The notes under the pieces are model-generated. The model did not search any database, was not told the origin of the DNA, and saw nothing but the letters and a program-made list of their open reading frames with translations. Source: Chloroflexota bacterium (GTDB lineage Bacteria; Chloroflexota; Anaerolineae; Anaerolineales; Villigracilaceae). From it: a DNA stretch of 17,867 nucleotides. This document shows, piece by piece, positions 1 to 17,807 of this stretch (the stretch's first letter is position 1; the number at the start of each line of letters is the position of its first letter). Made by a program: the position numbers and the translations under genes. The DNA lies in assembly GCA_021796155.1 (NCBI GenBank), contig JAJYOO010000014.1:1-17867 (forward strand). The letters run 5' to 3'.

Positions 1-2
1 TC

Positions 3-1504: not shown

Positions 1505-1505
1505 A

Positions 1506-2294
1506 ATGACTCGCTATCTGTCGCTCTACTGGTACTTCTTAATTCAGCGATTCAAAATTTTGATGGAATACCGCTTGAACTTTTTCATCGGCTCCGCTTC
1601 GACGGCGATTTTGCAAGCCGCGTCATCGGCAACGATCTGGGTTGTGATGCGGCAAATCCCATCGTTGAACGGCTGGAATTTTTACGAAGTCATTTTGATC
1701 TATGGATTTCTGACGATGGGCGAATCGATCACGCACATGTTCGCTGATAATCTATGGACCATCGGATGGAACTACGTTCGCAGCGGGGACTTCGACCGGT
1801 TCCTGGTACGACCGATTGATCCGCTCTTCCATCTTTTAGCGGATCGCTTCTGCCACGATGGCATCGGCAACTTCGTGACCGGAGCGCTGTTGATCGGCGT
1901 CTCGATGTATAACCTGCACATCGCGTTGACGCCCTTGCGCGCAGTTTATATTCTGGTGGCCGTCATCAGCGGCGGCGTTATTTTCATCGCGCTCAATTTG
2001 ATCACTGCCACATCCGCGTTCTGGTTGACCGAATCCATTCCGGTGACGCAAGTCGTTTTCAACATGAACGAATTCGCAAAATATCCGCTCAACATCTACC
2101 ATAACGCGATCCGCATTTTGTTGACGTGGTTAATCCCGTATGGATTCGTCTCGTTCTATCCGGCAAGTTATCTGCTCGGACGCGACGTGGGGCCGATGGT
2201 TTGGCTCAGCCCGGTCATGGCGGCGATTTTTATTTTGATTGCTTATCGCGTTTGGTTATTTGGTCTGCGGCATTATTCAGGAACCGGCTCATAG
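1506..2294 (+). CDS. ABC-2 type exporter permease (COG3694-like)
   Basis: This is the second membrane subunit of the exporter, 262 residues with about six hydrophobic segments. The ATG lies one base after the previous stop, so it is cotranscribed and probably coupled. Near residues 91-107 it carries the family motif VRSGDFDRFLVRPIDPL, which matches the RRGQIAVELTRPLD motif of its partner and probably contacts the ATPase. It is the last gene of this operon. Its stop lies 6 bp from the stop of the convergent LCP gene, with no room for a separate terminator, so transcripts from the two strands probably overlap at their ends. Family assignment is firm; substrate unknown. Confidence 0.9.
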   Translation: MTRYLSLYWYFLIQRFKILMEYRLNFFIGSASTAILQAASSATIWVVMRQIPSLNGWNFYEVILIYGFLTMGESITHMFADNLWTIGWNYVRSGDFDRFLVRPIDPLFHLLADRFCHDGIGNFVTGALLIGVSMYNLHIALTPLRAVYILVAVISGGVIFIALNLITATSAFWLTESIPVTQVVFNMNEFAKYPLNIYHNAIRILLTWLIPYGFVSFYPASYLLGRDVGPMVWLSPVMAAIFILIAYRVWLFGLRHYSGTGS

Positions 2295-2300
2295 AGTCAT

Positions 2301-3782: not shown

Positions 3783-3881
3783 AAGCGACCAGATTTGATA
3801 TATACCACCAATTGCCCGGTCGCGTACGCCGATGTCTAACCAGCTGCATTTTTGGATTTCGTTCCTCGCTACATCCGAATC

Positions 3882-5102
3882 TTATTCATTCCAAAACCGA
3901 CTGCCGTCTTTTTCCTTTCCATAGCCAAGCCAATCATCAATATTTTTCAACAGCGGATCAATGATGGGAAAGTTCGAAACAAAAGTCCGAGCCAGCTCAT
4001 GGACAAGGCCGGGATGTTTTGTAAACGGGCAAGCTCGCACACAACTTGTGCAATTGGCCGCCACGCCCAAGTCCCAATATTTGCGACAAGCCTCATTATT
4101 GATATGCCACGTGAAATGTCCATGACTGCATGAAATGCTATCACGCGACCAACTGCGTTCTCCGTGCGTGATGGCCTGCGCCGGACATTCATCCGCGCAT
4201 TTTTTGCAGACTTCGCAAAACTCCGTGACGCCGAATCGAATCGGATAGTCATGCGCGAGCGGTAGGTCGGTAATGACTTTGCACAGCCGCAGACTGGGCC
4301 CAAATTCGGGCGTGACCAGCTTTCCGCTGCGTCCCTGTTCGCCGAGACCCGCTTCGATTGCCATCGGAATGTTCAAACCTAAATCGTTAATGGACGGAAT
4401 CGCGTTGTAGCCGATGCCGCGCAAAAATTCCGCGACGCCCGAAACGATCAAACCCATTTTGCTGTAAGTGATGCGCGTCTCCGCGCAGCCCAATGGCGAC
4501 GGAGTGTAATCCATCATGTCAACTTCCATCGGGACGCCCATCACGATGACCCAGCACATCTTCTCCGGGATGACCATTTGGGTTTCGGTTTCTTTGGGTT
4601 GTTCTGTATCTGCAAAAACAATTTCCTTACGGGTCCCGTCGCTCCAATACGCGTGCGAATAAATGAATTGTTTCTTCAATGGCGCAATGCCAACCAGCTT
4701 TGCGCCGAAATAACGCGCCACGCGCTTCACCATCTTTGATGCTTCTTCGGGTGCGCCTTGCCATGCATTGATCCCGGGCGGAAGTTTATTTCCCAACGTT
4801 GACCATGACGTCACGCCCCGGTTGGAATGATTGATGGCGTTGCCCATGCGGAAGGCGCTCACGCCTCCTGCATCGAACAGACTGTAATCTTTCAATTGAT
4901 AACTTGATTTATCCGCTCTGATCTTTTTAATCCGCACCTCGACTGATTTCCGCAGCAGCGGCTTGAATTCATCATCCCAACTCGGCCGTCCCACCGTTAA
5001 ATTATTACGCTGGTCGAAGCGCTGATAGGTTTCGTTGATTTGATAGGGCGGATGATCCACTTCCAAATGTTTAACATACAAACGAGATAAAAGGTTCAGC
5101 AT
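3882..5102 (-). CDS. rdhA: Reductive dehalogenase (RdhA) family corrinoid/Fe-S protein, soluble, no TAT signal
   Basis: RdhA proteins use cobalamin and two [4Fe-4S] clusters to remove halogens from organic compounds. This 406-residue protein shows the N-terminal family motif YQRFDQRN (26-33), a corrinoid-binding core with AGLGEQGRSG (251-260) and TPEFGPSLRLCKVITDLPL (264-282), a first cluster motif CX2CX2CX3CP (C296, C299, C302, C306) and a second set (C339, C351, C354, C358, then PF). Y213 and Arg residues R258 or R272 are candidates for the proton-donor and halide-binding site; an alignment would decide. No twin-arginine signal, no transmembrane segment and no fused flavin or ferredoxin domain are present, and no rdhB anchor gene lies nearby. 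It is therefore probably cytosolic and reduced by a separate ferredoxin or flavoprotein. It follows the M24 gene by 42 bp. QueG is less likely because of the RFDxRN motif and the C-terminal spacing. Dehalogenation itself is not proven by homology. Confidence 0.88.
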   Translation of the reverse strand: MLNLLSRLYVKHLEVDHPPYQINETYQRFDQRNNLTVGRPSWDDEFKPLLRKSVEVRIKKIRADKSSYQLKDYSLFDAGGVSAFRMGNAINHSNRGVTSWSTLGNKLPPGINAWQGAPEEASKMVKRVARYFGAKLVGIAPLKKQFIYSHAYWSDGTRKEIVFADTEQPKETETQMVIPEKMCWVIVMGVPMEVDMMDYTPSPLGCAETRITYSKMGLIVSGVAEFLRGIGYNAIPSINDLGLNIPMAIEAGLGEQGRSGKLVTPEFGPSLRLCKVITDLPLAHDYPIRFGVTEFCEVCKKCADECPAQAITHGERSWSRDSISCSHGHFTWHINNEACRKYWDLGVAANCTSCVRACPFTKHPGLVHELARTFVSNFPIIDPLLKNIDDWLGYGKEKDGSRFWNE

Positions 5103-5108
5103 CTATTT

Positions 5109-5115
5109 CACCTCC
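5109..5115 (-). promoter_or_regulatory. Strong ribosome binding site of the rdhA-like gene
   Basis: On the minus strand GGAGGTG ends 6 bases before the ATG at 5102. It is one of the strongest Shine-Dalgarno matches in the window and fixes this start. It therefore supports the absence of an N-terminal export signal in the RdhA-like protein. Confidence 0.8.
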
Positions 5116-5144
5116 GCATTCATTGCCCCAACGTCTCTATCGCA

Positions 5145-6341
5145 TCATCCTTTTGCCACAACAAATTGCATCGGATATTTTTGAAAACTCACTGCGTCGC
5201 TTTCAGTCACGCGCGTTAAGCCGCCAACTTGCAAACCCATGCGTTCGTCAGGCGTGATTGGATTCGGCTGAACAACAATCGCCATGTCCTTTGCTATCGA
5301 ACGGCCAGCAGGCGCGAAATTTTTCCCATCCCAATATTTGCAACAACTCTGATCAATTAACGGCGGCTGGATGTCAACACCGAAGCCATGAATCAAATCA
5401 TCGTAAATTCGATATCCTGACTCGCCGATGACGGATGCAGACTGAATGACATCGCCTTCGGTCGCACCCGGTTTGAGCACGCGACAAACCTGACCGTAAG
5501 CCTGCTCGCCAATTTCAAAAAGTTTTTTCCACTCCGATGTTGGATCGCGCCCCACTGCAATCGGACGTTGTATCTGTCCCGAATAGCCCCAATAACTCGC
5601 GCTGATTTCCATGATGATGACATCGCCTTTTTGAATGACGCGGTCACTGACATTTTGCGAAGGGACACAAGCTGTGGGTGCATCCATCGGCATCGAACGC
5701 AAATAAGCCAGGTGCGGTTGTCCGCCTTTTCGACGATATGCGCCTTCGATGATCCCAATCAATTCAAATTCAGTCATACCCAATTTGATTTCTTTTTCCA
5801 GCGCGGACACGGTCGCATCGGTAAACTCGGCAGCTTTCTTGAGCCAGTCGAATTCTTCCTCGCTTTTGATCACGCGCAGACTCGCAAATGCGCGTGTGAC
5901 ATCAATCCATTCGATTTCAGGAAGACTTTGCGAGAGCATCGCAAAATGCTGATAAGGCATTCCCATACCAAACGTCGCGTTGACACCGACCAACCCGACG
6001 CGTCCTTTGCCGATGCCATTCTTCTTCAATTGAGCGACAATTTCTTTGGCAGGTTCGTATGTTCCCCAACGCGTATCTTCGATGACCGACATCAAGCGAG
6101 CGTTCGGAACGTGGTTGATGAATCCGACTAACAAGGCTGGCTCGCCTTCTAATGGCAAAACCAAATAGTTGTGATGCAAGTCTAGATAATTCGTCAGCCA
6201 ATAAACATTGGCTTCGTTATGGCGGAGGTTGCCCGAATTACCAAAGACGACCAATGCCTGCAAATCTTCTTTCCGCATCAAATCACGGGCAAGATTATTT
6301 CGACGCTCGAATTCAGCAGCAGAGAAACGCGGATACGTCAT
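5145..6341 (-). CDS. M24 (creatinase/aminopeptidase P fold) protein with degenerate metal site
   Basis: This is a two-domain 'pita-bread' protein: an N-terminal creatinase-like domain (about 1-155) and a C-terminal M24 domain (about 160-398). The start chosen is the ATG at 6341. It overlaps the stop of the preceding gene as ATGA and has AAGGA upstream; a TTG at 6362 would add 7 residues but is weaker. In active M24 metallopeptidases the metal is held by Asp, Asp, His, Glu, Glu. Here the equivalent positions read E245 (VIIMEIS), Q256 (12th residue of the GY...R block), H318 (HGFG), Q358 (VVQPN) and G373. Only the His is kept, so ordinary metallopeptidase activity is unlikely. Creatinase has the same fold and works without metal, so a C-N amidinohydrolase-like or other hydrolytic role on the imported compound is possible. 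It is translationally coupled to the alpha/beta hydrolase. Confidence 0.87.
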   Translation of the reverse strand: MTYPRFSAAEFERRNNLARDLMRKEDLQALVVFGNSGNLRHNEANVYWLTNYLDLHHNYLVLPLEGEPALLVGFINHVPNARLMSVIEDTRWGTYEPAKEIVAQLKKNGIGKGRVGLVGVNATFGMGMPYQHFAMLSQSLPEIEWIDVTRAFASLRVIKSEEEFDWLKKAAEFTDATVSALEKEIKLGMTEFELIGIIEGAYRRKGGQPHLAYLRSMPMDAPTACVPSQNVSDRVIQKGDVIIMEISASYWGYSGQIQRPIAVGRDPTSEWKKLFEIGEQAYGQVCRVLKPGATEGDVIQSASVIGESGYRIYDDLIHGFGVDIQPPLIDQSCCKYWDGKNFAPAGRSIAKDMAIVVQPNPITPDERMGLQVGGLTRVTESDAVSFQKYPMQFVVAKG

Positions 6342-7396
6342 CCAAGTTTTTCCTTGAGCCAATCGGCGGTCAGCGGACGATAAATGTATGGAATGTTATT
6401 GCAGACGTGATTCCCATTTTCGAATATTGCCAACTCCGCATTCTTGCCAACCGCGTTGATAATTTTGTGCGCTTGTTCCCACGGAACTAAACGGTCAAGT
6501 TTGCCGTGAATAACGAGCAACGGCTGTTTGATTTTGTTCGCCACACCTTCCAATGAAAGTTGACCAGCTTTTACTTTGGCGTCCACCGCGTCTTTCGCAC
6601 CAGAATGATATTGAAAGGCCGCACGCGTGAGCGATGGCGTTCCGTCCCAACACTCGGCAAAATTATACGGACCGCAATTGCCAACCGCGGCCTTGATGCG
6701 CGAGTCAAAAGCTGCGGCGCGCGGTGCATAATATCCGCCAAGACTTACGCCAGCCACGCCAATTCGATTTGGATCAATATCTTTGCGTTTGGTCAATGTA
6801 TCCAACGCAGTTGACACCGCGGCTTCATAATCGGGACGAATGAATGAGTTGTATCCGCACTCGCCTTGACCGGGGCCATCCAAGGAAAATGTCGCCAGCC
6901 CGCGCTCGAGGAAGACATTCTCCCAGTAGAAAAATTCCTCCTTAGTAGAATCAAGTCCAGGCAGAAGCAAAATCAACGGCGGCTTATTTACGTCTGCAGG
7001 TCGGCGGAAAGTCCCGACCATCGTCGCCCCGTCGAAAGGAATTTCCACGCGTTCCCCCGTTGGATCGAGCAGTTTGAGTCCTTTTGCGAAAGCCTCCACC
7101 GCTTTTTGCGAAGCTGACATGTATTCGTCGTGGAAATTCTGAAACACAAATTTGCCGAAGTGATAACACAACGCCGCGGCGATATACGCCTCGCCCGCAC
7201 TGACTTTATTTCCGTTTGCTTCGGCCTTCACGGCAAGATCAAAATGAACATCACCGGTAACAACCCACTCGCGGCACCAGTCTTCCCACTTTTGCACGCG
7301 TGCAGTAGTGCGGAAGAAATCGTTGTAGTCCACGCCTTGTGATGTAAAACGCGGTGCCCAATTTCTGATCGCGGCTTCTACTTTTTCGTCAGGCAT
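6338..7396 (-). CDS. Alpha/beta hydrolase, similar to 2,6-dihydroxypseudooxynicotine (C-C bond) hydrolase
   Basis: This 352-residue protein has an all-helical N-terminal part (about 1-110) and a core alpha/beta hydrolase domain (about 115-352). The core holds the oxyanion region LLLPGLDSTKEEF (143-155), the nucleophile elbow GVSLGG (S218), D301 in HGKLDRLVPW and H330 in ENGNHVC. An acidic residue E248 (NFAECWD) sits in the cap region. The layout matches the nicotine-pathway C-C hydrolase, whose catalytic residues I recall as Ser217, Glu248, Asp300 and His329, nearly the same numbering. That enzyme cleaves a C-C bond next to a keto group on a pyridine ring; FrsA-like esterases are a looser alternative. 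AGGAG lies 7 bases before the ATG. It sits 15 bp after the amidohydrolase gene and overlaps the M24 gene by 4 bp. The N-terminus (EYMSASQKAVEAF) is typical of this subfamily. Exact substrate unknown. Confidence 0.9.
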   Translation of the reverse strand: MPDEKVEAAIRNWAPRFTSQGVDYNDFFRTTARVQKWEDWCREWVVTGDVHFDLAVKAEANGNKVSAGEAYIAAALCYHFGKFVFQNFHDEYMSASQKAVEAFAKGLKLLDPTGERVEIPFDGATMVGTFRRPADVNKPPLILLLPGLDSTKEEFFYWENVFLERGLATFSLDGPGQGECGYNSFIRPDYEAAVSTALDTLTKRKDIDPNRIGVAGVSLGGYYAPRAAAFDSRIKAAVGNCGPYNFAECWDGTPSLTRAAFQYHSGAKDAVDAKVKAGQLSLEGVANKIKQPLLVIHGKLDRLVPWEQAHKIINAVGKNAELAIFENGNHVCNNIPYIYRPLTADWLKEKLG

Positions 7397-7411
7397 ATCA
7401 ATCTCCTATTT

Positions 7412-8398
7412 CTAAAATTTCCAATTCAATAAACGGCTGGCATTCTCACCGAGAATCGCCGCCTCATCTTTTGTGTTCAACTTGATCGAGCGAACCAAGT
7501 CAACAGGATTCTCATTACCCATATCAAACGGATAATCCGAACCAAGCAAAACATGATCTGCGCCAGCGAATTCAACAAGTTCACACAAAACAGTTGCATC
7601 GTGTGTGATCGTGTCAAAATAAAATTGCCGAAGATATTCTGTCGGTGGTTTTGAAATCACTTTGCTGATTTCAGGCCGCACCTTAAAGCCGCGATCCAAT
7701 CGTCCATGCAGGTATGGCAATGCGCCGCCGCCGTGCGCCAGTAAAATTTTCAGGTGCGGATAAGCCTCCATTGTGCCGGACAAAATCAAATGTCCCGCGG
7801 CGACCGAGGTTTCCATCGGATTGCCAATCACGTTCCATATGTAATAGTCGCGCAGCTCGGCGCGCCCGCCACCCTCGACTGGATGAATGAAAACAAACGC
7901 ACCAAGGGATTCACATGCTTCCCAAAATGGATGAAAGCGCGCATCGCCGGGATAAACGCCATTGACATGCGTGCCGATCTCGACGCCCTTCAATCCAAGC
8001 TTCATCGCGCGTTCAAGTTCTTTGATCGCAAGCGCAACATCTTGAAGCGGGACCAATCCCAACGCCGCGATTCGCTTTGGATATTTTTTTACAAGCGATG
8101 ACAACGCATCATTCTGGACCTGGCAACTGCCCAGCGATTCTTCTGGCTTTGACTCATATCGAACCAGCGACACCCACGGACAAAGCAGTACCGCATCAAC
8201 TTTCGATTTGTCCACCTGGGACAAAATCTTTTCGGCATTGACAAATTCGCGCGTTGCAGAGCCGATGCGCTTGCCGTTATATTCAACAAATTGTTTTCCG
8301 TTTTCCCATACTACACGCGGACGCCATTCTTCCGCGGGTGCAGCTTCACGCAAAATTTCAGGAACAATAGTGTGGGCGTGTGCATCAATGATGGTCAT
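7412..8398 (-). CDS. ACMSD-like amidohydrolase / decarboxylase (Amidohydro_2, COG2159)
   Basis: This is a TIM-barrel metal-dependent enzyme of 328 residues in the family of aminocarboxymuconate-semialdehyde decarboxylase (ACMSD), gamma-resorcylate decarboxylase and related non-oxidative decarboxylases and hydrolases. The metal site is complete: HxH at H7 and H9 (DAHAH), H172 (IHPVEGGG), H222 (LAHGGGALPY) and D288 (LLGSDYPFDMG). The GLKGVEIGT strand at about 135-143 is also typical. It lies between the nitroreductase (12 bp) and the alpha/beta hydrolase (15 bp), which points to an aromatic or ring-cleavage substrate. Whether it decarboxylates or hydrolyses cannot be settled by sequence. Start ATG 8398, preceded by GAGG about 10 bases upstream. 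Confidence 0.9.
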   Translation of the reverse strand: MTIIDAHAHTIVPEILREAAPAEEWRPRVVWENGKQFVEYNGKRIGSATREFVNAEKILSQVDKSKVDAVLLCPWVSLVRYESKPEESLGSCQVQNDALSSLVKKYPKRIAALGLVPLQDVALAIKELERAMKLGLKGVEIGTHVNGVYPGDARFHPFWEACESLGAFVFIHPVEGGGRAELRDYYIWNVIGNPMETSVAAGHLILSGTMEAYPHLKILLAHGGGALPYLHGRLDRGFKVRPEISKVISKPPTEYLRQFYFDTITHDATVLCELVEFAGADHVLLGSDYPFDMGNENPVDLVRSIKLNTKDEAAILGENASRLLNWKF

Positions 8399-8410
8399 GA
8401 AATTTATGCC

Positions 8411-9079
8411 TCAAAGATTTAGGAATTGTTTTAGGAGTTCCAGCTTCTCGGCTGGCGGCTCATCGCCTTTGCGGCAGTTGTACCATTCGTAAAACGCAAC
8501 TTCATTCAGCGGTCTGCGCTCCCAATACTTTGGGTCGGATGTGTCATAACCATCGGGCGAACCATTACCATCAATGTAGCCGATGCCGAGCAGCCCAATG
8601 AAAACCCAATGATGCGGTATGCCTACGATCACTTTCATTTTGTCCGGCATCATGTGACTCCAATAACATGCGCCCAATCCAAGCGCATGAGCCGTAAGCC
8701 ACATGTTCATAGCAGCTAGCGACGCGCCGATAATATGTCCCATCTCGCCACCAGTGTGCGGCGGAGCGTGACGCGGATCGGCGAAGATGGCAATGCCAAG
8801 CGGCATGTTACGCAGGTCAACAATGTAACCGCGTTTTTCGCCCTCGCGAAAATAGGGAGCCCAGATGCGCGATAAATTTTTGGACTCTTCAGCAACTTTC
8901 TGAATCCGCTCTTTCGTTTCCGGATTTTGGATGGCAATGAAAGCCCATGGCTGAAAGTTTCCAGCCGATGGCGCCCAGCGCCCCGCATCGAGAATCTTGT
9001 CTACCAGTTCATCGGGAACCGGCTTGTTCAGCCATTTGCGTATGCTGCGTCGGGTATGAATTGCTTCTAATACATCCAT
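8411..9079 (-). CDS. Nitroreductase family FMN-dependent oxidoreductase
   Basis: This 222-residue flavoprotein should bind FMN as a dimer and reduce nitro groups, quinones, enones or other acceptors with NAD(P)H. The family signature is clear: the N-terminal phosphate-binding RRSIR (10-14), RWAPSAGNFQPW (34-45), LGLGACYW (133-140) and the C-terminal RRPLNE (188-193). Members of this fold also include iodotyrosine deiodinase and the B12-ligand enzyme BluB; no BluB-specific motif is recognised here. A region of about 20 residues (66-89, RIWAPYFREGEKRG and onward) forms an insertion after the FMN segment. AAGGA lies about 9 bases before the ATG. It follows the EamA gene by 83 bp, in which no convincing promoter was seen. 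It could supply electrons to another enzyme of the cluster, including the RdhA-like protein, but this is speculation. Confidence 0.92.
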   Translation of the reverse strand: MDVLEAIHTRRSIRKWLNKPVPDELVDKILDAGRWAPSAGNFQPWAFIAIQNPETKERIQKVAEESKNLSRIWAPYFREGEKRGYIVDLRNMPLGIAIFADPRHAPPHTGGEMGHIIGASLAAMNMWLTAHALGLGACYWSHMMPDKMKVIVGIPHHWVFIGLLGIGYIDGNGSPDGYDTSDPKYWERRPLNEVAFYEWYNCRKGDEPPAEKLELLKQFLNL

Positions 9080-9162
9080 ATCAATATTTCCTTTTAATCA
9101 ATCATCGTCGGTTACGGTAATTAGATATGAACACGAACATCGCAATTTATTGTTGTCTTTGC

Positions 9163-10065
9163 CTAAACAAATGTTAATAGTAGCGCGCCGCCAACAATCA
9201 AGCCGGTTGCAGTCCATAATGTAGTCGTCACGCGTTCCAGTTGTTTGCCTGAGATCAGTGGCGAAAGAAAGATGACCATCGGAGCAGAGATCATGCTCAA
9301 TGCCAACACAACCGCGACAGGAGCCAGATCGAGTGCAACCCATCGCATCCACGTGGATAGACCAACCAAAACACCGGCGATCAATTTGTAGGTCCATGCT
9401 TCGTTCGTGATGGGTACGCCCATCCACCGTTGACGCTGAAACAGCAAAAGGATTCCATAACCGAACGCGCTAGCCGTCACGCCAACGGTCACGCCCAATA
9501 ACGGGGACGGCAATCCTTCCAGGCCGAGGCGAATGAATATCGGACTGATTGCCCAGCACAAACCCGCGCTCAACCCAAGCCAGGACACGCGCAAAATGTC
9601 AAAAAGGGATTTGGGCTTGGAAGCAGCTTCTGTGCTTGTATTCGGCTCATTGGAAACCAGATAAGCGCCTGCCACCATTGCGCCAATGCCAAGCAATTCC
9701 AACGGAGTCGGAATCTCGCTCAGAGTCACCGCCGCGATGATGGCCGCGAAAAGCGGATTCGTTCCAATCAATGGACTCGTCCGCGCTGCGCCAATGCGCT
9801 GCTGGCTGGCATTAAGAAAAGTCCAACCAATAAGAAAATGAAAAAAGCCCGCCGCGACAAAATAAATCAACGCACTGATTGGCGCGTGAAGAAGAGGACT
9901 CAAATCTTCCGTCAGCAAGGCGGCCGCGATCAGCACCAACGATGAAACGAAAAGCTGCACGAATGTCGCAACGTACACATCCATGCTTCGCACAGCCTGA
10001 CGATTAAATGTTTGGAACAGACCGAAACCCGCTCCCGCCGCCAACGCCCATAAGATTCCGCTCAT
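9163..10065 (-). CDS. EamA/DMT family membrane transporter
   Basis: This is a ten-helix drug/metabolite transporter of 300 residues made of two EamA repeats (about 3-137 and 155-300). Visible family marks are the N-terminal LWALAAGAGFGLFQTFNR, the end of repeat one (LELLGIGAMVAGAYLVSN) and the repeat-two sequence SPLISGKQLERVTTTLWTATG near the C-terminus. Family members export or exchange metabolites, often amino acids or nucleobases. The ATG overlaps the TGA of the importer ATPase gene (ATGA), so it is translationally coupled to a Liv-type ABC importer. That suggests it handles the same compound or a product of it, for example exporting a waste product. Direction and substrate are not determinable. 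Confidence 0.9.
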   Translation of the reverse strand: MSGILWALAAGAGFGLFQTFNRQAVRSMDVYVATFVQLFVSSLVLIAAALLTEDLSPLLHAPISALIYFVAAGFFHFLIGWTFLNASQQRIGAARTSPLIGTNPLFAAIIAAVTLSEIPTPLELLGIGAMVAGAYLVSNEPNTSTEAASKPKSLFDILRVSWLGLSAGLCWAISPIFIRLGLEGLPSPLLGVTVGVTASAFGYGILLLFQRQRWMGVPITNEAWTYKLIAGVLVGLSTWMRWVALDLAPVAVVLALSMISAPMVIFLSPLISGKQLERVTTTLWTATGLIVGGALLLTFV

Positions 10066-10838
10066 AGGGTCATACTCACTACATCGGCGCGCTTTCCGCG
10101 GCGGCGATAGGATTCGCCTTCGGTGGATCCACCGAGATAAAGCTTCGCCATTTCAGGACTGTCCAATAATTCTTTCGCGGTGCCTTCGAATTTTTCCTTG
10201 CCCAATTCAAGCACATAACCGCGATGTGCGGATGCCAAACCTTCGCGCGCATTTTGCTCGACCATGAGAATCGTCAAGCCACCGCGATTTAATTCGCGGA
10301 TGGTTTCAAATAATTCCGACATTGTCTTTGGCGCGAGTCCAAGCGATGGTTCATCCAAAATCAACAACGGCGGTTCAAGCATGAGTGCGCGTCCAATCTC
10401 GACGATCTTTTGCTGTCCGCCAGAAAGGTTGCCCGCTTTCACCTTAGCGCGAGACTTCAACCATGAAAACCGCGCATAGACTTTTTCCAGCCGCTGCTCG
10501 ACCACGTTTTTGTCCAGGACGGTAAATGCACCCATCAACAAATTTTCATGGACAGTCATCTTCGGGAAAACACTGTGACCCTGCGGAACGTGCGTAATGC
10601 CTTCGGTCAAAATTTTCTGCGGCGGCATCCCGCCGATGGATTTTCCATGGAACGTGATGGAGCCTTTTGATGGTTTGAGAAAACCCGATACCGCGCGCAA
10701 CACTGTGGATTTTCCCGCGCCGTTCGGTCCAACGAGGCAGACAATTTCGCCTTGCTCCACGCGCAGACTCACCCCGCGCAAAATGTCCACACCGGGGATG
10801 TAACTGGCTACCACATTCTCAAGCTGCAGCATTGGCAT
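10062..10838 (-). CDS. livF: Liv/HAAT-type ABC importer ATP-binding protein (LivF-like)
   Basis: This is one of the two ATPases of a branched-chain amino acid/amide-type importer. From the ATG at 10838 it is 258 residues: Walker A GPNGAGKST (37-45), Q-loop Q86 (THVPQGHSVFP), signature LSGGQ (138-142), Walker B LLILDEP (158-164) and the LivF-typical VEQNAREG (194-200). This start has GGGAG 8 bases upstream and overlaps the livG-like gene by 20 bp; the longer frame back to 10937 lies wholly inside livG and is not credible. After the usual LivF end (YLGG, about 234-237) there is an extra tail of about 20 residues rich in Arg (ESYRRRGKRADVV), whose coding DNA reaches the EamA start. Works with the genes at 10819-14867. 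Substrate not readable. Confidence 0.93.
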   Translation of the reverse strand: MPMLQLENVVASYIPGVDILRGVSLRVEQGEIVCLVGPNGAGKSTVLRAVSGFLKPSKGSITFHGKSIGGMPPQKILTEGITHVPQGHSVFPKMTVHENLLMGAFTVLDKNVVEQRLEKVYARFSWLKSRAKVKAGNLSGGQQKIVEIGRALMLEPPLLILDEPSLGLAPKTMSELFETIRELNRGGLTILMVEQNAREGLASAHRGYVLELGKEKFEGTAKELLDSPEMAKLYLGGSTEGESYRRRGKRADVVSMTL

Positions 10839-11574
10839 TTTGTGTACTCCCGAGGTAGGCTTCCAAAACGAGCGGATTGTTTTGAATTTCCGAAGGCCCG
10901 CCCTCCGCAATCTTCTGTCCATGATCGAGAACAACAATGTACTGGCAAAGTTCCATGACGAGGCGCATATTGTGTTCGACCAACAGGAATGTTTTACCTT
11001 TTTGATTCAAATCATCCACCAGTTCCATCATCTTTTCGATCATGACCGGGTTTACGCCGCCCGCCGGTTCATCGAGCAGAATCATATCCGGGTCCGACAT
11101 CAGAACCGCCGCCAACTCGATCAGCTTTTGCTGGCCGAATGAAAGCTTGCGGGCTTCCTCATCGCGATATTTGGTAAGCCCCACCATTTCCAAAAGTTCC
11201 ATCGCTTTTTCTTCTTCATGTTTTTTTACGCCCTGGCCCATCAACACCTGCATGCCCAATTGCTTCACGGGAACGATCATATTTTCCAGGACGGTCATTT
11301 TCCAAAACAAACGCGTGATCTGAAATGTGCGCCCGATCCCGCGGTGATAAATCTGATTCGGTTTGAGTCCGTGAATCGGTTTATCATTTAAAAGAATTGA
11401 ACCCGAATCAGCCTTATAGAATCCGGTGATGATGTTGAACAGCGTGGTCTTACCCGATCCATTTGGGCCGATCAAGCCGGTGATGGAACCGCGTTCGACA
11501 GCAATCGAACAGGAATCTACGGCTTTGATTCCGCCAAAGGATTTCGTTACCTGGTCTGCTGATAGCATCGGCAT
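10819..11574 (-). CDS. livG: Liv/HAAT-type ABC importer ATP-binding protein (LivG-like)
   Basis: This is the second ATPase of the importer, 251 residues: Walker A GPNGSGKT (36-43), Q85 in RTFQITRLF, signature LSFGQ (144-148, with Phe in place of the first Gly, common in LivG), Walker B MILLDEP (164-170) with AGGVNP, and H201 (VEHNM). The C-terminal EAYLG is the usual LivG ending. The ATG is 4 bases after the livM-like stop, with GAGG about 8 bases upstream. The first codons (MPML) and the bases around the ATG are nearly the same as at the start of the livF-like gene. LivG-like and LivF-like ATPases pair to drive the two permeases. Confidence 0.94.
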   Translation of the reverse strand: MPMLSADQVTKSFGGIKAVDSCSIAVERGSITGLIGPNGSGKTTLFNIITGFYKADSGSILLNDKPIHGLKPNQIYHRGIGRTFQITRLFWKMTVLENMIVPVKQLGMQVLMGQGVKKHEEEKAMELLEMVGLTKYRDEEARKLSFGQQKLIELAAVLMSDPDMILLDEPAGGVNPVMIEKMMELVDDLNQKGKTFLLVEHNMRLVMELCQYIVVLDHGQKIAEGGPSEIQNNPLVLEAYLGSTQNANAAA

Positions 11575-11578
11575 TTTG

Positions 11579-12574
11579 TTACCTCGCCTCGCTCACTGCG
11601 ACTTGGGCCTTGGTGCGGCGCTGCTTTAGGTATTCTGACACTGCCGGCAAAATCCCTTGCGGCACAAACAGCATGACCAGCAATAAGATTCCACCAAAGA
11701 CCGCCAGGTGAATGGATGACCCGCCAAATTGTCCAACGACCCAGATGGACAACGGCTGCATAATGAAAGCTCCCAGCACCGGTCCCCAGAGTGTGCCGCG
11801 TCCGCCGAGGATCGCCATCAAGACCATGGACACGCTGACGAAAATGTCAAAGACAAAGCCCGGGTCAATGTAGGTGAAAAAGTATGAATAAATACCGCCA
11901 GCCACAGCCACAAAATATGAACTGATTCCAAAGGCAAGCACTTTGTACATCATCGTGTCAATGCCAACGGATTCGGCTTTGCCTTCATCTTCGCGAATGG
12001 CGATCAATCCCAACCCAAACTTGGAATGGCGAATCCACCACGACGCAAAAATTGTCAGGCAAAGCAAAACAAGAAAGAAATAAAGAAACGGAATCTTTAT
12101 GAACTCCGGCGACCATTGCACGCCTCCCCATCCAGGGCGTGATTGGGTCAAGCCTCTTGCGCCATTGGTGATCTGATCCAGGTTAAGCGCAAGCAAACGG
12201 AAAATAAAGATGATCGCTATGGTGACAACCACGAAAGCCGATCCGTGAGTGCGAAGCGCAATCCATCCCATGATCAAAGCCACGACCAACACAACCAAAC
12301 CCAGGAACCATGCACTGATGAATGGATGCCATCCATAATGATTATTCGTCCACGCTACCAGGTAACCGCCCAGGCCGAAGAAGGCCGCGTGTCCCAGCGA
12401 CGTATATCCCGCGTAGCCGCCGATCACATTCCAACTGGAAGCCATCACCGCCGCCATTAACGTCATGACGATGATGTGTTGATAATATTGGTTTGGCATG
12501 ACCCACGGCGAAATTAGCCCGACGACGAACAGGATAATAACCAGACCAGGAGTCGAACGAAAGAATTTCGACAT
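11579..12574 (-). CDS. livM: Liv/HAAT-type ABC importer permease (LivM-like)
   Basis: This is a membrane subunit of the importer, 331 residues with about nine hydrophobic segments. Family marks are GYAGYTSLGHAAFFGLGGYL (53-72), the cytoplasmic ATPase-contact loop AIREDEGKAESVGID (192-206) and GGRGTLWGPVLGA near the C-terminus. The ATG shares one base with the stop of the livH-like gene (TAATG), so it is coupled to it. It pairs with the LivH-like protein as a heterodimeric channel. The LivM-type permeases of the urea, amide and aromatic-acid importers share these motifs, so a leucine-type substrate should not be assumed. Confidence 0.94.
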   Translation of the reverse strand: MSKFFRSTPGLVIILFVVGLISPWVMPNQYYQHIIVMTLMAAVMASSWNVIGGYAGYTSLGHAAFFGLGGYLVAWTNNHYGWHPFISAWFLGLVVLVVALIMGWIALRTHGSAFVVVTIAIIFIFRLLALNLDQITNGARGLTQSRPGWGGVQWSPEFIKIPFLYFFLVLLCLTIFASWWIRHSKFGLGLIAIREDEGKAESVGIDTMMYKVLAFGISSYFVAVAGGIYSYFFTYIDPGFVFDIFVSVSMVLMAILGGRGTLWGPVLGAFIMQPLSIWVVGQFGGSSIHLAVFGGILLLVMLFVPQGILPAVSEYLKQRRTKAQVAVSEAR

Positions 12575-13461
12575 TAGCCCTTCTCCCGAACCACTTCACC
12601 CATCAAGCCTCGCGGGCGAATAATCAAAATGAAGAACAGGAAAACGTAAAAGACAATTGGTGACCAATACAACGTAATGACAATGGCCGTCAATTGTTCC
12701 ATGACGCCGAGTATCAATGAAGCGACCAATGCGCCGGGCAGGCTTCCCATGCCGCCCAACACGATGATGGCAAGCGTCTTGGCGACCCAATCGCCCTGGC
12801 TGGCCGGGTTGAACGTGTAGATCATGCTCAACAACGATCCACCAGCCGCGGCAGTGGATACACCCAGCGCGAACGCGAATGCGGATACCATCGAAACTTT
12901 AACGCCGACCAATTGCGCGGCGCGCGGGTCCTGGATCGTAGCACGGACCGCGCGTCCCAGCCGGGTGCGCTGCAAAATGAAGTAGAGAATCAACAGCACC
13001 AGCAGTGCAGCGACGAATCCTGCGAGACGCGTGACCGGAATACGATATGTCGCAATCACCAGCGTTGCGTTGGAATACGCAGGCGTCACCGAGCGCGCAG
13101 TCGTTTGAAAGATTGCGCCCAGCAAACCTTCCAGAACGAGCGCCAGCGCAAACGTCACCAGTACGGATGTCTGCTCTGGATTCTCAATGCGCGAAAATAC
13201 ATACCGCTGAAGAAGCCATCCGAACAAAAAGAAAAGTGGAACTGTGATGAAGATGGAAAGGATGGGATCCAACTTAATCCACTGAAAGAGAACGTAAGTC
13301 AAGTACGCGCCAAGAATCAAAAATGCGCCATGTGCCACATTGATCACTTTCATAACGCCGAAGATCAATGTCAGCCCGGATGCCATCAGCGCATACACGC
13401 CGCCGACAAGTATTCCTAGAATCAAAGTCTGAATGAATAAATGAGCAGACGGTAACGACAT
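12574..13461 (-). CDS. livH: Liv/HAAT-type ABC importer permease (LivH-like)
   Basis: This is the partner permease, 295 residues from the ATG at 13461 with about eight hydrophobic segments. Marks are INVAHGAFLILGAYLTY (40-56), the cytoplasmic loop with RATIQDPRAAQLVGVKV, and LGGMGSLPGALVAS toward the C-terminus. Several starts are possible: TTG 13482, ATG 13476, ATG 13473 and ATG 13461. The last has GGAG 6 bases upstream and gives the usual LivH N-terminus; the first lies inside a strong RNA hairpin (13478-13515), so 13461 is preferred. The gene lies 125 bp after the binding-protein gene. Confidence 0.92.
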   Translation of the reverse strand: MSLPSAHLFIQTLILGILVGGVYALMASGLTLIFGVMKVINVAHGAFLILGAYLTYVLFQWIKLDPILSIFITVPLFFLFGWLLQRYVFSRIENPEQTSVLVTFALALVLEGLLGAIFQTTARSVTPAYSNATLVIATYRIPVTRLAGFVAALLVLLILYFILQRTRLGRAVRATIQDPRAAQLVGVKVSMVSAFAFALGVSTAAAGGSLLSMIYTFNPASQGDWVAKTLAIIVLGGMGSLPGALVASLILGVMEQLTAIVITLYWSPIVFYVFLFFILIIRPRGLMGEVVREKG

Positions 13462-13477
13462 GAAAAGCTCCATCATT

Positions 13478-13515
13478 GACAATCTGGAGGCGACTTGCGC
13501 CGCCCCCAGATCATC
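13478..13515 (-). promoter_or_regulatory. Strong RNA hairpin with GCAA tetraloop just before the livH-like gene
   Basis: On the minus strand, bases 13510 to 13483 form a 12-bp stem (two G-U wobbles) closed by a GCAA loop (13498-13495), a GNRA tetraloop. The stem extends to 13515/13478 with further A-U, G-U and G-C pairs, about 17 bp in all. No U-run follows, so it is not a standard intrinsic terminator. Its place between binding-protein and permease genes suggests an mRNA-stabilising or partial-attenuation element that keeps the binding protein more abundant. It also covers the TTG at 13482. Confidence 0.75.
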
Positions 13516-13555
13516 CTAATCAGATTTCGAGTTTGGGCAGATTGCCGTCCAAATC

Positions 13556-13575
13556 TCCAGAAGCGAGCTTCCGGA
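13556..13575 (-). promoter_or_regulatory. RNA hairpin directly after the binding-protein gene
   Basis: On the minus strand an 8-bp stem (UCCGGAAG with CUUCUGGA, one G-U) is closed by a CUCG loop, which fits the stable YNMG class. It begins 11 bases after the stop of the binding-protein gene. Only a weak U-rich stretch (GAUUU) follows. It may protect the 3' end of that message. A small third hairpin (GGCA, loop AUC, UGCC) lies at 13536-13546. Confidence 0.55.
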
Positions 13576-13586
13576 TTCCAAATCGT

Positions 13587-14867
13587 TTACCAATTCGGCT
13601 TGGGCCAGACGGCATCCACTTGCTTGGCGTAATCGGGTGCGACGATTTTATATGTGCCGCCCTGCCATTGCAGGACCATGAACGAACCTTTGGGTTGACC
13701 AAGTTCATCGAATGACAATGGACCCACAACAGTCTTGTATGTGGCCGAGTGCATATCTGCGATCAATTTGGCGTTGTCCACGCTCTGGGTGTTCTCGATT
13801 GCCTGCTGAAGGACCTGCCCCACCGTGAAGGCATTGGCGGAATCTTCAGCAATCGCTTCGGAGCCGTACATGGCGTGATAGGCAGCCACAAATTCAGGAT
13901 TGGTCGGGGTTGTGGAAGCCTCAAACCAGGACATGGCAGAGAAGATGCCTTCCGTAGCCGGGCCTAGACTTTGATTGAATTCCACGGGCATCGAGGGACC
14001 GGTAGTAAAGAAGGCACCTTTCGGCTGATAGCCAGCCTGGATGTACGCCTTGATCTGGCCAACAGAGTCATCGAACATTGTGCCGCCGAGGATCAAATCA
14101 GGATTCTTGTCAGCAACCTTGGCCGCAAGCGAGGAAAAGTCCTTGGTGTCAGGCGCATATTTCTCGTTGAGAACTTCGGTGAGACCGCCAGCGGTCAATA
14201 ATGGTTCCATTGCCGTTACCACGCCGAGAGTGAATGGATCGTCCTGGGTAATCACGGCAAAGGTCTTGGGACGGGTGGCTTCCGGCAAGCTCAATATGTA
14301 ATTGACAAAAGGAACACCCTGCGTATTGGAGGAAGCCGGCTGGCAGAAGAAAATATTTTTCAGGCCGCGGTTGAATACATCCGGTGCGCCACCGGCGGGT
14401 TCGGGGAACGCATAACCGTATTTATTGGCAACTTCGGATGTGGGGATAACGAGCTTACTAGAGAATGGACCAACAACCAAATCCACTTTATCCTGCGTGA
14501 TCAACTTTTCGTAATCGGCAACGGCAGTATCGGGATTGGACGCGTTGTCGTAAACCGTCAGCTCAACTTGACGGCCAAGCAATCCCCCGGCCTTGTTGAC
14601 CATATCAACCCACAACTCGTAACCTTTCTTGGCTGCGGTGCCCGGATCAGAAAAATCACCGGTCAAGGGAAGCGAAGCGCCAATCTTGATTGGTGCTGCA
14701 GCGGCGGGCGGCACAGCAGTTGGGGCCTCTGTGGCCGCAGGCGCGGGCGGTTGTGCGGGTGGTTGGGTTACAGCGAGAGGAACAGGCGTCGCGGCAGGGC
14801 CGCAGGCGACGGCCAGCAGGCTTATTAAAGCCAAGCTGATTATCAACGACCAAAACTTCGATTTCAT
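13587..14867 (-). CDS. Liv/HAAT-type substrate-binding lipoprotein (LivJ/K-like, Peripla_BP_6)
   Basis: This is the extracytoplasmic receptor of the importer, 426 residues. A lipoprotein signal (residues 1-21, KSK then a hydrophobic core) ends in AVAC with the lipidated Cys at position 22. A Pro/Ala/Thr-rich spacer runs to about residue 58, and the type-1 periplasmic binding fold follows (IKIGASLPLTGDFSDPGTAA from 60). Both lobes look intact (YDNASNPDTAVADYEKLI, VVGPFSS, then FAVITQDDPFTLG in lobe two). The Pro-rich spacer after the lipid Cys is common in Chloroflexota. GAGGAG sits 5 bases before the ATG. It is followed by two RNA hairpins and then the permeases. Binding-site residues could not be matched to leucine, urea, amide or aromatic-acid receptors by eye, so the ligand is open. 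Confidence 0.93.
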   Translation of the reverse strand: MKSKFWSLIISLALISLLAVACGPAATPVPLAVTQPPAQPPAPAATEAPTAVPPAAAAPIKIGASLPLTGDFSDPGTAAKKGYELWVDMVNKAGGLLGRQVELTVYDNASNPDTAVADYEKLITQDKVDLVVGPFSSKLVIPTSEVANKYGYAFPEPAGGAPDVFNRGLKNIFFCQPASSNTQGVPFVNYILSLPEATRPKTFAVITQDDPFTLGVVTAMEPLLTAGGLTEVLNEKYAPDTKDFSSLAAKVADKNPDLILGGTMFDDSVGQIKAYIQAGYQPKGAFFTTGPSMPVEFNQSLGPATEGIFSAMSWFEASTTPTNPEFVAAYHAMYGSEAIAEDSANAFTVGQVLQQAIENTQSVDNAKLIADMHSATYKTVVGPLSFDELGQPKGSFMVLQWQGGTYKIVAPDYAKQVDAVWPKPNW

Positions 14868-14968: not shown

Positions 14969-15093
14969 TCAGGAACGATAGTTAAACGTCAGTAACTTTA
15001 ATTCGCTCATCCCTTCCATGACATAGCGCAATCCTTCGCGTCCAAAGCCGGATTGCTTAACCCCGCCCCGTAAGGCATGTGATTAATTGTTGT
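14969..15093 (-). pseudogene. Decayed C-terminal end of an aldehyde dehydrogenase gene
   Basis: Read on the minus strand, 15067 to 14972 encodes GGVKQSGFGREGLRYVMEGM followed by SELKLLTFNYRS, then TGA at 14971-14969. This is the C-terminal signature of NAD(P)-dependent aldehyde dehydrogenases of the lactaldehyde/glyceraldehyde type, where the same residues are preceded by (D/N)xMPY. Here TTINHMPY is also present (15093-15070) but in a different frame: there are two extra bases in the G-rich run at about 15062-15070. Everything before TTINH, including the catalytic Cys and Glu, is missing and replaced by the end of the E2 gene. So this is a truncated, frameshifted remnant of about 42 codons. 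Confidence 0.78.
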
Positions 15094-16469
15094 CATGCCA
15101 ACAACTTCCATGGATCTTCAATAAGATTCGCCAAATCACCGAGGAATGGCGCCGCTCGCGCCCCGTCCACGACGCGATGATCGAGTGAAAGCGTCACGAC
15201 CATCATGGGCCGAATCACCACTTGACCATTCACCGGCACAACGCGATCCGCAATCCGTCCAACCGAAAGGATCGCGGCTTGCGGCGTGTTGACAATCGCA
15301 TTGAACGCGTCCACGCCGTACATGCCAAGATTCGTTAAAGTGAACGTACCATCAGAAACATCTGTGGGCCGAAGTTTTTTCTCGCGCGCCCGTTCGATCA
15401 AATCTTGACGTTGAGCTGCAATCTCGCTTACAGTCGCTTTATCCGCATGATGAATGACCGGAACGATCAAGCCATCATCAACAGCAGTTGCAATCCCAAC
15501 ATTGATTTCTTCGTTCCATTGAATGCCATCTTTTATCCAACTCGCATTCAAACGCGGGTGATCGCGCAGTGCAATGCCGATCAATTTCACAAGCAAATCG
15601 GTATAAGTTGGTTTGACATTGGTACGTTTTTCGACAGTTGGCGTGATTCGCTTTCGCCATTCAACCAAATTGCCCGCATCCACTTCACGGATTAAATAAA
15701 AGTGCGGGACGGTCGTCCAACTGGCGGACATGTGTTCCGCCATCACGCGCCAGATTTGACCGGGCGTTTCGAGATTTTTTGATTCGACGACTAGCTTGAA
15801 ATTTTCCACATCCGACGCGAGTACGGCTCCATCTGGGCCGGAACCGGATACCGTTTTCAAATCGAGTCCACGCTCCGAGGCGAGTCGACGCGCCTTCGGC
15901 GAAGCAAGAACGCGCGAAGGATGAGAGATGAAAGATGAAGGATGAATGGCGGAAACTTCATCTTTCACACCTACACTTGCGCCAGGTGCAGGTGTCTTTC
16001 CACTTTCATCTCTTAGGTACGCCATCACATCTGCTTTCCCGATCCGCTTGCCATTTGATTTCAACGATGACAGGTCAATCCCATTTTCTTCCGCCATCTT
16101 ACGCGCGACGGGAGAAACATCAACTGGCGTTGTGACATTCAATGGTATTGGTTTTGATTCAGTTGGAGCGATAGTGCTTGTAGTTCGACCGGTTGGAAGG
16201 TCAATCGGCGGCGTGGATGGCGGAGTTTCGCCGGGCTGCAAAATCCAGCCAATGGTTTTACCAACTTGAACAACATCATTTTCCTTGACGAGGATGCCGC
16301 CAAGGATGCCGGCTTCGGGCGCGCCGATCTCAACCGTCACTTTGTCGGTCTCGATTTCCATAATCGGCTCACCTTTAGCAACAGTGTCGCCATCGTGCTT
16401 GAGCCAACTTACGAGGCGTCCAGTTTCTTGCGCCATTTCGAGCGCCGGCATAATGATGTTCGTTGCCAT
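15093..16469 (-). CDS. 2-oxoacid dehydrogenase dihydrolipoyl acyltransferase (E2) with two E3/E1-binding domains
   Basis: The E2 core enzyme of a pyruvate-, branched-chain- or acetoin-dehydrogenase-type complex carries acyl groups on lipoate and passes them to CoA. Domains over 458 residues: lipoyl domain (about 1-78, lipoyl Lys K43 in IETDKVTVE), Thr/Pro linker, a peripheral subunit-binding domain (117-152, VSPVARKMAEENGIDL), a second linker, another such domain (187-222, ASPKARRLASERGLDL) and the catalytic domain (about 228-458) ending with DHRVVDG (H431, D435). Tandem binding domains are unusual. The linker between them is encoded by heptamer repeats. No E1 or E3 genes are in view. The ATG directly follows the TAA of the DddP-like gene. 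The tail LIEDPWKLLA is normal, and the stop sits exactly at the junction with the aldehyde dehydrogenase remnant. Substrate class cannot be assigned. Confidence 0.93.
   Translation of the reverse strand: MATNIIMPALEMAQETGRLVSWLKHDGDTVAKGEPIMEIETDKVTVEIGAPEAGILGGILVKENDVVQVGKTIGWILQPGETPPSTPPIDLPTGRTTSTIAPTESKPIPLNVTTPVDVSPVARKMAEENGIDLSSLKSNGKRIGKADVMAYLRDESGKTPAPGASVGVKDEVSAIHPSSFISHPSRVLASPKARRLASERGLDLKTVSGSGPDGAVLASDVENFKLVVESKNLETPGQIWRVMAEHMSASWTTVPHFYLIREVDAGNLVEWRKRITPTVEKRTNVKPTYTDLLVKLIGIALRDHPRLNASWIKDGIQWNEEINVGIATAVDDGLIVPVIHHADKATVSEIAAQRQDLIERAREKKLRPTDVSDGTFTLTNLGMYGVDAFNAIVNTPQAAILSVGRIADRVVPVNGQVVIRPMMVVTLSLDHRVVDGARAAPFLGDLANLIEDPWKLLA
15919..16013. repeat. Heptamer tandem repeats and inverted copies inside the E2 gene
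   Basis: On the + strand four consecutive heptamers GGATGAG, AGATGAA, AGATGAA, GGATGAA fill 15919-15946. A perfect 12-bp inverted copy of 15929-15940 follows at 15956-15967 (CTTCATCTTTCA, 15-bp loop), and a 10-bp inverted copy of 15924-15933 lies at 16004-16013. In the protein these give HPSSFISHPS and part of KDEVS, in the linker between the two subunit-binding domains. Similar heptamer runs occur between genes and in linkers of several bacterial groups. Here it looks like an in-frame insertion in a tolerant linker. Confidence 0.75.
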
Positions 16470-17795
16470 TTAGCCTCGTGCCGCGGCAACCATTTCAACA
16501 ACACGTTCGTTCATCACCGGTTCGTGTGTGCGCGTGGTTGGCAATGGACCCGTTGCAGTGTAATAATGATGACCCGCTACCATCAAATCATTGGCTGGAA
16601 AACGCGTGATGATTTCATGTCCGGTTTCGGTAACGACGATTTCTTCTTCAATACGCGCCGCGCTCCAGCCATCGGATGACGGCCAATACGTTTCGAGCGC
16701 AAAGACCATGCCGGGTTTGATCTCAGCTGGATGGTCAATGGAAACGAGGCGGCTGATAACCGGCCGTTCCCAAATTGCGAGGCCAACGCCATGGCCATAT
16801 TGAAGTGCGAATGCAGCTTCTTCATTTGGAAAACCGAAGTCGGTTGCTTTCGGCCATGCTTTTGCAATTTCGCCCGTTGTGCAACCTGGACGCACTAATT
16901 CGATTCCAGCATCGAGAATATCGCGGCAGCGTTTATACGCGTCCACCATCGCGGGAGATGCATAACCGATTACGAAAGTCCGGTAATAGCATGTTCGATA
17001 ACCCATGTATGATTGAAGAATATCGTAATAGACCGGGTCGCCGGGACGAAGCATTCTGTCCGAGAAAACATGTGGATGCGGGTTGCAGCGTTCGCCTGAA
17101 ATCGCGTTGACCGCCTCGACATATTCAGAGCCAAGATCATAAAGAACTTTACTGGCAATGCCAACTGCTTCGTTCTCGCGCATTCCTGGTTTCATCATGC
17201 GATAAAGTTCATCGTACGCGGCATCCACCTGGCCTGCCGCGTGAGTCAATAATGAAAGCTCGTCTTGTGTCTTGATGACACGCGCTTCGGACATGAGTTG
17301 TTGGCCATCAACAATCGTCAAACCTTTTTTCTGTAGCTCGAACAGCACGGGCACTTCAGCAATATCAACGCCGACAGGTTCTTTTTCAAGTCCGCGTTCT
17401 TTGAGTTCGGCCCAGATTTTATTGGCAACATCTTCAGCGCGTCCCATTTCGGGAGACATCGCACCGCGCAAAAGGGAAATACCCGCGCGTGATCTTTTTT
17501 CTCCGAGCCATGGAGCGTAAAGCTGATGATGTTTCGCGGCAGACCCAAAATCCCACAGGATTGGTTCATCATCCTGCGGAAGCAATGTGAAACGATTGGC
17601 TTTGTCCTGCGCCCATGTGCCAATGTGAGTTGCTGTCAGATAGCGCACATTGTTCATATCAAAGCATAACAATGCACCCATTTCAGATTCGCGGAGCAAT
17701 TTTTTAGCGCGGTCCAATCGTTCACGGCGCAAGCGATCAAAATCAATGCGTTGTTCCCAATCCACTTGCATGGTTCCATAGGTTTTGATTGCCAT
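16470..17795 (-). CDS. M24 family protein, DddP-like, with Asp-to-Cys change at a metal ligand
   Basis: This is a creatinase/aminopeptidase P-fold protein of 441 residues from the ATG at 17795, which has AGGAG 8 bases upstream; the ATG at 17801 is only 2 bases from it. Several blocks resemble the DMSP lyase DddP as I recall it: LLCFDMNNVRYLT, ILWDFGSAAKH and NAISGERCNPHPH. Metal-ligand positions read D258 (YYDILQS), C269 (RTCYYRTF), H335 (GHGVGL), E368 (FALETYWP) and E383 (RIEEEIVVT). Four of five are kept and the second Asp is Cys. After the His the sequence is HGVGLAIWERP, whereas DddP has an Asp recalled as its catalytic base there, so DMSP lyase activity is unlikely. It precedes the E2 gene with no gap (TAAATG). 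A lyase or hydrolase acting on a small organic acid or amide is possible. Confidence 0.88.
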   Translation of the reverse strand: MAIKTYGTMQVDWEQRIDFDRLRRERLDRAKKLLRESEMGALLCFDMNNVRYLTATHIGTWAQDKANRFTLLPQDDEPILWDFGSAAKHHQLYAPWLGEKRSRAGISLLRGAMSPEMGRAEDVANKIWAELKERGLEKEPVGVDIAEVPVLFELQKKGLTIVDGQQLMSEARVIKTQDELSLLTHAAGQVDAAYDELYRMMKPGMRENEAVGIASKVLYDLGSEYVEAVNAISGERCNPHPHVFSDRMLRPGDPVYYDILQSYMGYRTCYYRTFVIGYASPAMVDAYKRCRDILDAGIELVRPGCTTGEIAKAWPKATDFGFPNEEAAFALQYGHGVGLAIWERPVISRLVSIDHPAEIKPGMVFALETYWPSSDGWSAARIEEEIVVTETGHEIITRFPANDLMVAGHHYYTATGPLPTTRTHEPVMNERVVEMVAAARG

Positions 17796-17807
17796 ATCCA
17801 TCTCTCC

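Follow-up and report, generated by a model that had tools for sequence, protein, structure and literature searches.

Genes for reductive dehalogenases (RDases; RdhA proteins) are often taken as a sign of organohalide respiration, and the locus described here raises the question of what such a gene does when its product has no export signal and no RdhB gene close by and is encoded in an operon for import and catabolism. The locus lies on a 17,867-nucleotide stretch of DNA (the window: contig JAJYOO010000014.1, positions 1 to 17,867) from an uncultured member of the Chloroflexota. We favour, with moderate confidence, a role as a peripheral catabolic reductase, in which a cytosolic single-domain RdhA cleaves a carbon–halogen bond. 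The gene and its start region are:

3882..5102, minus strand: RdhA-like protein of the corrinoid/two [4Fe-4S] cluster type, 406 aa, no twin-arginine translocation (TAT) signal, no transmembrane (TM) helix
5103..5125, minus strand: ribosome site GGAGGTG and in-frame TAG directly 5' of the ATG

A sequence-only reading had placed the gene correctly, leaving its strand unsaid; the open reading frame (ORF) runs from 5102 to 3882 on the minus strand. The start region, GCGGAGGTGAAATAGATGCTG, has a strong ribosome site, with GGAGGTG a few bases before the ATG, and the codon immediately preceding the ATG is an in-frame TAG, so that no N-terminal extension is possible in frame. The missing signal peptide is therefore not a start-site artefact, and a TAT signal overlooked through a wrong start can be ruled out. 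A chance ORF can be excluded as well, because 1030 homologues were found at E<=1e-3 among 2675 candidates, a copy in a syntenic operon (locus L001 of G001, a groundwater Chloroflexi metagenome-assembled genome, MAG) is 82% identical, and the two copies differ by a dN (nonsynonymous divergence) of ~0.12 as against a dS (synonymous divergence) of ~1.03.

The RdhA-like identity is borne out by computation. The protein scores 264.8 bits with TIGR02486 (cut-off 160.35) and 45.7 bits with PF13486 (cut-off 24.3), Fer4_16 and Fer4_7 are above their cut-offs, and all eight cluster cysteines are present in the two motifs that had been read from the sequence (296/299/302/306 and 339/351/354/358). A QueG-type or other B12 protein miscalled as RdhA could claim a weak similarity (45.3 bits with TIGR00276), but this is below the cut-off of 200, the QueG of G001 itself reaches 333, and the match to PceA extends over residues 3-406; such a miscall is hardly credible, and we regard this identity as ruled out. 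The sequence-only reading had named two outcomes that would count against it, a placement in QueG or another non-dehalogenase B12 family and a lack of active-site residues, and neither was found.

The RdhA fold covers the whole chain, and the closest solved structure is PceA of Sulfurospirillum multivorans (4uqu, 5ma2; 34-36% identity in structural alignments), a TAT-exported, respiratory enzyme. Shared with it are the two four-cysteine motifs, the equivalent of W376 and the catalytic trio Tyr246/Asn272/Arg305, which corresponds to Y213/N239/R272. When counted over 77 sequence clusters of the clade to which the window protein belongs, both [4Fe-4S] motifs are complete and the trio is kept in 77/77, and the W376 equivalent is retained in 69/77 of the aligned clusters.

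A TM helix, taken as any 19-residue Kyte-Doolittle mean >1.6, was found in 0/77 clusters, and this includes the 1-4 N-terminal helices known from hybrid RdhA (PMC6797604). As this test does not detect TAT signals (most TAT-bearing controls also score zero), a TAT-specific measure was used, combining an RR motif in the first 80 residues with a 13-residue hydrophobic stretch. The window protein has no RRx[FLIVMY] in its first 80 residues, while 21 of 21 TAT controls score in the same test. The motif is missing from this region in 66/77 clade members, and the other 11 carry it either within the conserved core, at residues 52-64, or at residues 2-8, where no hydrophobic stretch goes with it. That stretch is present in all 21 controls (1.26-2.16 on the 13-residue scale), a range into which only one clade row falls, P0046 (1.38), yet at residue 64 inside the conserved core. 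A search of ~3 kb around the window gene, inside the window and without an RdhB positive control, gave no RdhB-like small ORF with at least two hydrophobic segments, and none came up within 3 kb of the genes of G001, of a second relative, G111, and of the first of two copies in a third, G503. The lack of an export signal and of a nearby RdhB, as first read, thus holds. From these features the protein is predicted to be cytosolic. A respiratory RdhA attached to the membrane and reaching its partner by another route could appeal to the closeness to PceA and to a small two-segment ORF that the second G503 copy has within 3 kb, but that ORF is antisense to another one, and with neither TAT signal, possible N-terminal extension nor TM helix, and no RdhB-like ORF near four of the genes, we consider this explanation very improbable.

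The protein consists of a single domain. The PceA match takes up practically all of its 406 residues, and neither a fused reductase domain (the phthalate-dioxygenase type of the BhbA subset) nor a duplicated vestigial RdhA domain, a trait of NpRdhA and BhbA, was found in it. As claimed, it therefore has no redox domain of its own and needs an outside electron donor.

The gene belongs to an operon of 13 co-directional genes (M24a, E2, LivKHMGF, EamA, nitroreductase, amidohydrolase, alpha/beta hydrolase, M24b, RdhA) in which 8 of the 12 junctions are overlapping or <16 nt and no gap exceeds 225 nt, which agrees with the catabolic and import setting described earlier. The other members, all on the minus strand, are:

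5145..6362, minus strand: M24-fold protein M24b, creatinase-like, 88% identical in L001
6338..7396, minus strand: alpha/beta hydrolase, nearest solved structure 2,6-dihydroxypseudooxynicotine hydrolase (2jbw, E 5e-49)
7412..8398, minus strand: amidohydrolase-2, nearest solved structures aminocarboxymuconate semialdehyde (ACMS) decarboxylases (E 5e-52)
8411..9079, minus strand: nitroreductase-family flavoprotein, nearest solved structure BluB (E 1e-20), iodotyrosine deiodinases at E 2e-12
9163..10065, minus strand: EamA-family transporter (family scan)
10062..10937, minus strand: LivF-type ABC ATPase, named by place and sequence, true start probably internal
10819..11574, minus strand: LivG-type ABC ATPase, named by place and sequence, 88% identical to the copy in G001
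11579..12574, minus strand: LivM-type permease, named by place and sequence
12574..13482, minus strand: LivH-type permease, named by place and sequence
13587..14867, minus strand: LivK-type substrate-binding protein (Peripla_BP_6, family scan)
15093..16469, minus strand: 2-oxoacid dehydrogenase E2, a lipoyl acyltransferase (family scan)
16470..17801, minus strand: M24-fold protein M24a, resembling DddP by score, though far short of the cut-off for DddP

The true start of M24b is likely at ~6341, where the L001 copy begins. In the printed alignments both prolidase Asp ligands are replaced in M24b and partly altered in M24a, so that the two proteins may be creatinase-like rather than peptidases. 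That RdhA ends the operon is true of the window and not of L001, where the gene is in mid-operon. A LytR-CpsA-Psr protein is encoded on the same strand at 2301-3782, 99 nt downstream of the RdhA gene, and the minus strand between 3600 and 5300 showed no terminator-like site.

In L001 the gene order of the window is kept and the shared proteins, LivG included, are 62-93% identical. The operon there adds genes for an acyl-CoA dehydrogenase and CoxG/M/L/S, and the nitroreductase gene is missing at the corresponding place. The RdhA and CoxS frames share 4 nt, and 3 nt beyond RdhA comes a series of three dehydrogenases (the first medium-chain; 190-208 bits, below the IolM cut-off of 450), IolN (537 bits, cut-off 245), a kinase of the 2-keto-3-deoxygluconate (KDG) type and an aldolase of the 2-keto-3-deoxy-6-phosphogluconate (KDPG) type. 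The best match of the CoxL-like subunit is 4-hydroxybenzoyl-CoA reductase, and 6-hydroxypseudooxynicotine dehydrogenase ranks third. The first G503 copy is accompanied by three M24 genes, a creatininase, a thiamine pyrophosphate (TPP) enzyme, CoxG, dehydrogenases and an aldehyde:ferredoxin oxidoreductase, and the divergent second copy lies beside two M24 genes and an acyl-CoA dehydrogenase. In G111 the RdhA gene sits between the IIC and IIB genes of an ascorbate-type phosphotransferase system (PTS), near IIA, a ribulose-phosphate epimerase and a phosphofuranose-lactonase-like gene (379 bits, below the cut-off of 630). M24 genes thus accompany four of the five clade members, all except that of G111, and sugar- or cyclitol-type enzymes occur at G001 and G111 and, less clearly, at the first G503 locus, so that cyclitol or sugar catabolism is in part what the relatives suggest. 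All five neighbourhoods are compatible with a catabolic role in the cytosol. G111 also encodes a TAT-type RdhA of 506 aa (L049, 6057-7577), near which a gene at 9167-11200 looks, as far as its sequence can be read, like an aldehyde:ferredoxin oxidoreductase.

For the catabolic dehalogenase that we favour, we infer a corrinoid cofactor and the following order of steps. An organic substrate would be imported through LivFGHMK; the cell's general pool of ferredoxin or flavodoxin would supply RdhA with two electrons of low potential, which would travel over both [4Fe-4S] clusters to a corrinoid in base-off form (Co(I)); the C–halogen bond would then be cleaved, with Y213 as presumed proton donor aided by N239 and R272; and the product would be handled by the operon's creatinase-like, C–C hydrolase, decarboxylase and 2-oxoacid dehydrogenase enzymes. 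The simplest electron source would be a shared pool of low-potential ferredoxin. No ferredoxin gene was found with two cysteine-spacing patterns in the five neighbourhoods (adrenodoxin-type ferredoxins and flavodoxins were not sought), two pattern matches in G001 being out-of-frame or antisense ORFs. The nitroreductase was dropped as a dedicated donor because it is not kept at that place in L001. Aldehyde:ferredoxin oxidoreductase as donor is no more than a lead, since none is encoded inside the window; its gene lies ~1.9 kb downstream of RdhA in G503, and an AFOR_C-only ORF lies ~21 kb upstream in G001. A heme-copper oxidase is encoded in G001 and none was seen in G111 or G503.

Several observations weigh against the explanation that we favour. 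No gene in the neighbourhoods names a halogenated substrate, and relatives are placed in PTS and inositol-type operons. CobS was found in 0/3 relative MAGs (G001, G111, G503), which fits corrinoid salvage or MAG incompleteness, and the ferredoxin scan has gaps, since the known [2Fe-2S] CoxS of G001, with its different cysteine spacing, escaped it. Finally, the aligned pocket of the clade appears to have lost much of the aromatic lining of PceA: by alignment W96 is replaced by Gly in 77/77 clusters and Y382 by Asn in 71/77, and Y102 is mostly Leu or Met. It is also more polar (E208 in 74/77, N350 in 71/77, G80 in 77/77). The clade may therefore not act on halogens at all, and the lost lining together with the operons of the relatives makes a polar, non-halogenated substrate a live alternative, in which the RdhA machinery would perform a reductive C–O or C–N cleavage in cyclitol, sugar-acid or N-heteroaromatic catabolism, comparable to QueG acting on an epoxide. 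The tight packing of RdhA between CoxS and the IolN/kinase/aldolase module in G001, and its position between the PTS genes in G111, speak for this. On the other side, the dehalogenase trio is kept throughout and the W376 equivalent nearly so, the G001 dehydrogenases and the G111 lactonase-like gene fall short of their cut-offs, the window has no module of this kind, and the operon neighbours of a dehalogenase can equally serve the dehalogenated product. On balance we hold this alternative to be possible, though unlikely. With the same low expectation, the clade would add to QueG a second non-dehalogenating reaction class of this corrinoid fold, and the general ferredoxin pool would drive it.

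Among the 120 of 1030 matches listed, rows P0002-P0091 form one identity group (51-85% for full-length rows), and subsequent rows are at <=45%; source labels within the group are Chloroflexi, Anaerolineales, Acidobacteriota, Gammaproteobacteria and one Methanothrix fragment, these being labels of MAGs and so subject to their binning. In a careful tree of 63 of the 98 collected rows, the 18 clade members included form one clade with 100/100 support on a backbone without resolution. An earlier quick tree with 34 clade members had the clade adjoin a 375-aa group, a search that overlooked a better tree joining it to BhbA-type rows, as the constrained tree scored higher there. In the careful set a join with the three BhbA-type rows tested (Comamonas, Nitratireductor sp. 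OM-1 and Jannaschia, NpRdhA itself not being among them) is not favoured and not rejected (p-AU, approximately unbiased test, 0.263), nor is a join with the 375-aa group rejected (p-AU 0.418). The window clade is thus, as judged from these trees, an RdhA lineage of its own. Outside it, L006-L009 and L011 (Flavobacteriaceae and Saprospiraceae records) are RdhA homologues of 383-403 aa without TAT motif in a separate 100/100 lineage. P0092, P0094, P0095, P0097, P0105 and P0109 (named Desulfitobacterium sp. PCE1) have 676-709 aa and no TAT-like start in their first 120 residues; the second halves of P0094 and P0109 reveal two tandem RdhA units, each with its own pair of cysteine motifs, unlike NpRdhA, in which one unit is vestigial.

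In Dehalococcoidia, the RdhA of DEH-C11 has neither TAT signal nor RdhB, and a catabolic, detoxifying or fermentation-aiding role was suggested (Wasmund et al. 2016, PMC4959651); for the Anaerolineales cell An-B22 both the TAT signal and the usual rdhAB features are reported as missing (PMC4959059). Both resemble the window protein in this, in their Fe-S motifs and in phylum. A tRNA-His is often found next to rdhA on contigs of the DEH-C11 clade, and a MarR gene is present in DEH-C11 (PMC4959651), whereas no Rfam match was obtained in the window. RDases of Loki- and Thorarchaeota lack TAT, RdhB and fusions and conserve the trio, those of Thorarchaeota, unlike ours, with an extra 4Fe-4S domain (PMC6737245). 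The TAT-less Ros_A3X954 of Roseobacter was active after expression, and Bathy-, Loki- and Thorarchaeota RDases, likewise TAT-less, are listed as active after expression (PMC13101508, reporting the Ng and Silver survey). The Bathyarchaeota relatives L002-L004 fall outside the window clade, with 38-41% identity, and as far as tested the archaeal and Roseobacter enzymes appear to be separate lineages. NpRdhA and BhbA share the cytosolic location and the lack of TAT; they differ in a second, vestigial RdhA domain, to which BhbA adds a reductase domain (PMC10463259). The loci of BhbA and of the OM-1 relative are aromatic-catabolic ones, and both proteins are ~28% identical to the window protein over the core. 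TAT-less cytoplasmic RdhAs have been termed catabolic (PMC6797604), and bins with RDase genes and no RdhB gene are reported (PMC12090745). The premise of the sequence-only reading that soluble enzymes of the NpRdhA type bring their own reductase domain falls away here, as NpRdhA is placed in a clade of catabolic RdhAs without one (PMC10463259). The architecture is not an anomaly, because TAT-less, RdhB-less RdhAs have been described before and are an established kind in Dehalococcoidia, Anaerolineales and Asgard archaea. Its observation is confirmed and its interpretation partly supported.

The clade is rare and patchy. With membership set at identity >=50%, and in draws that overlap so that the same genomes recur, members occur in 2/396 genomes of the class of G001 (<=4 candidates scored per genome; some match at E<=1e-40 in 43/396), 2/301 of its order and 1/152 of its family, 1/7 of the order of G111, 1/27 of the family of G503 and 1/400 in the phylum draw, where a second match, G742, is just 41% identical. 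Among 44 pattern stretches in viral contigs no relative was confirmed. This distribution and the varied neighbourhoods would suit an electron sink or detoxifying reductase that is co-transcribed with a catabolic operon without being a step in its pathway, and facilitated fermentation and detoxification were indeed proposed for DEH-C11 (PMC4959651). We think this rather improbable, as the window and L001 both keep RdhA in the syntenic operon despite gains and losses of other genes, and as it is tightly coupled within the G001 operon.

In the literature searched, no published description of the window clade or its operons was found. What is new is the clade together with its operons, with the gene of relatives set in a molybdenum-hydroxylase/inositol-type operon or between PTS IIC and IIB genes, and an aligned pocket in which much of the aromatic lining of PceA is gone. 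The clade places RdhA-fold enzymes inside carbon-catabolic operons, once (in G001) with overlapping reading frames, and the genome of one relative also encodes a heme-copper oxidase. With a halogenated substrate, dehalogenation would be a normal peripheral part of how Chloroflexota use carbon; with any other, a new corrinoid-reductase reaction would be at hand, and RdhA annotations in metagenomes would need correcting.
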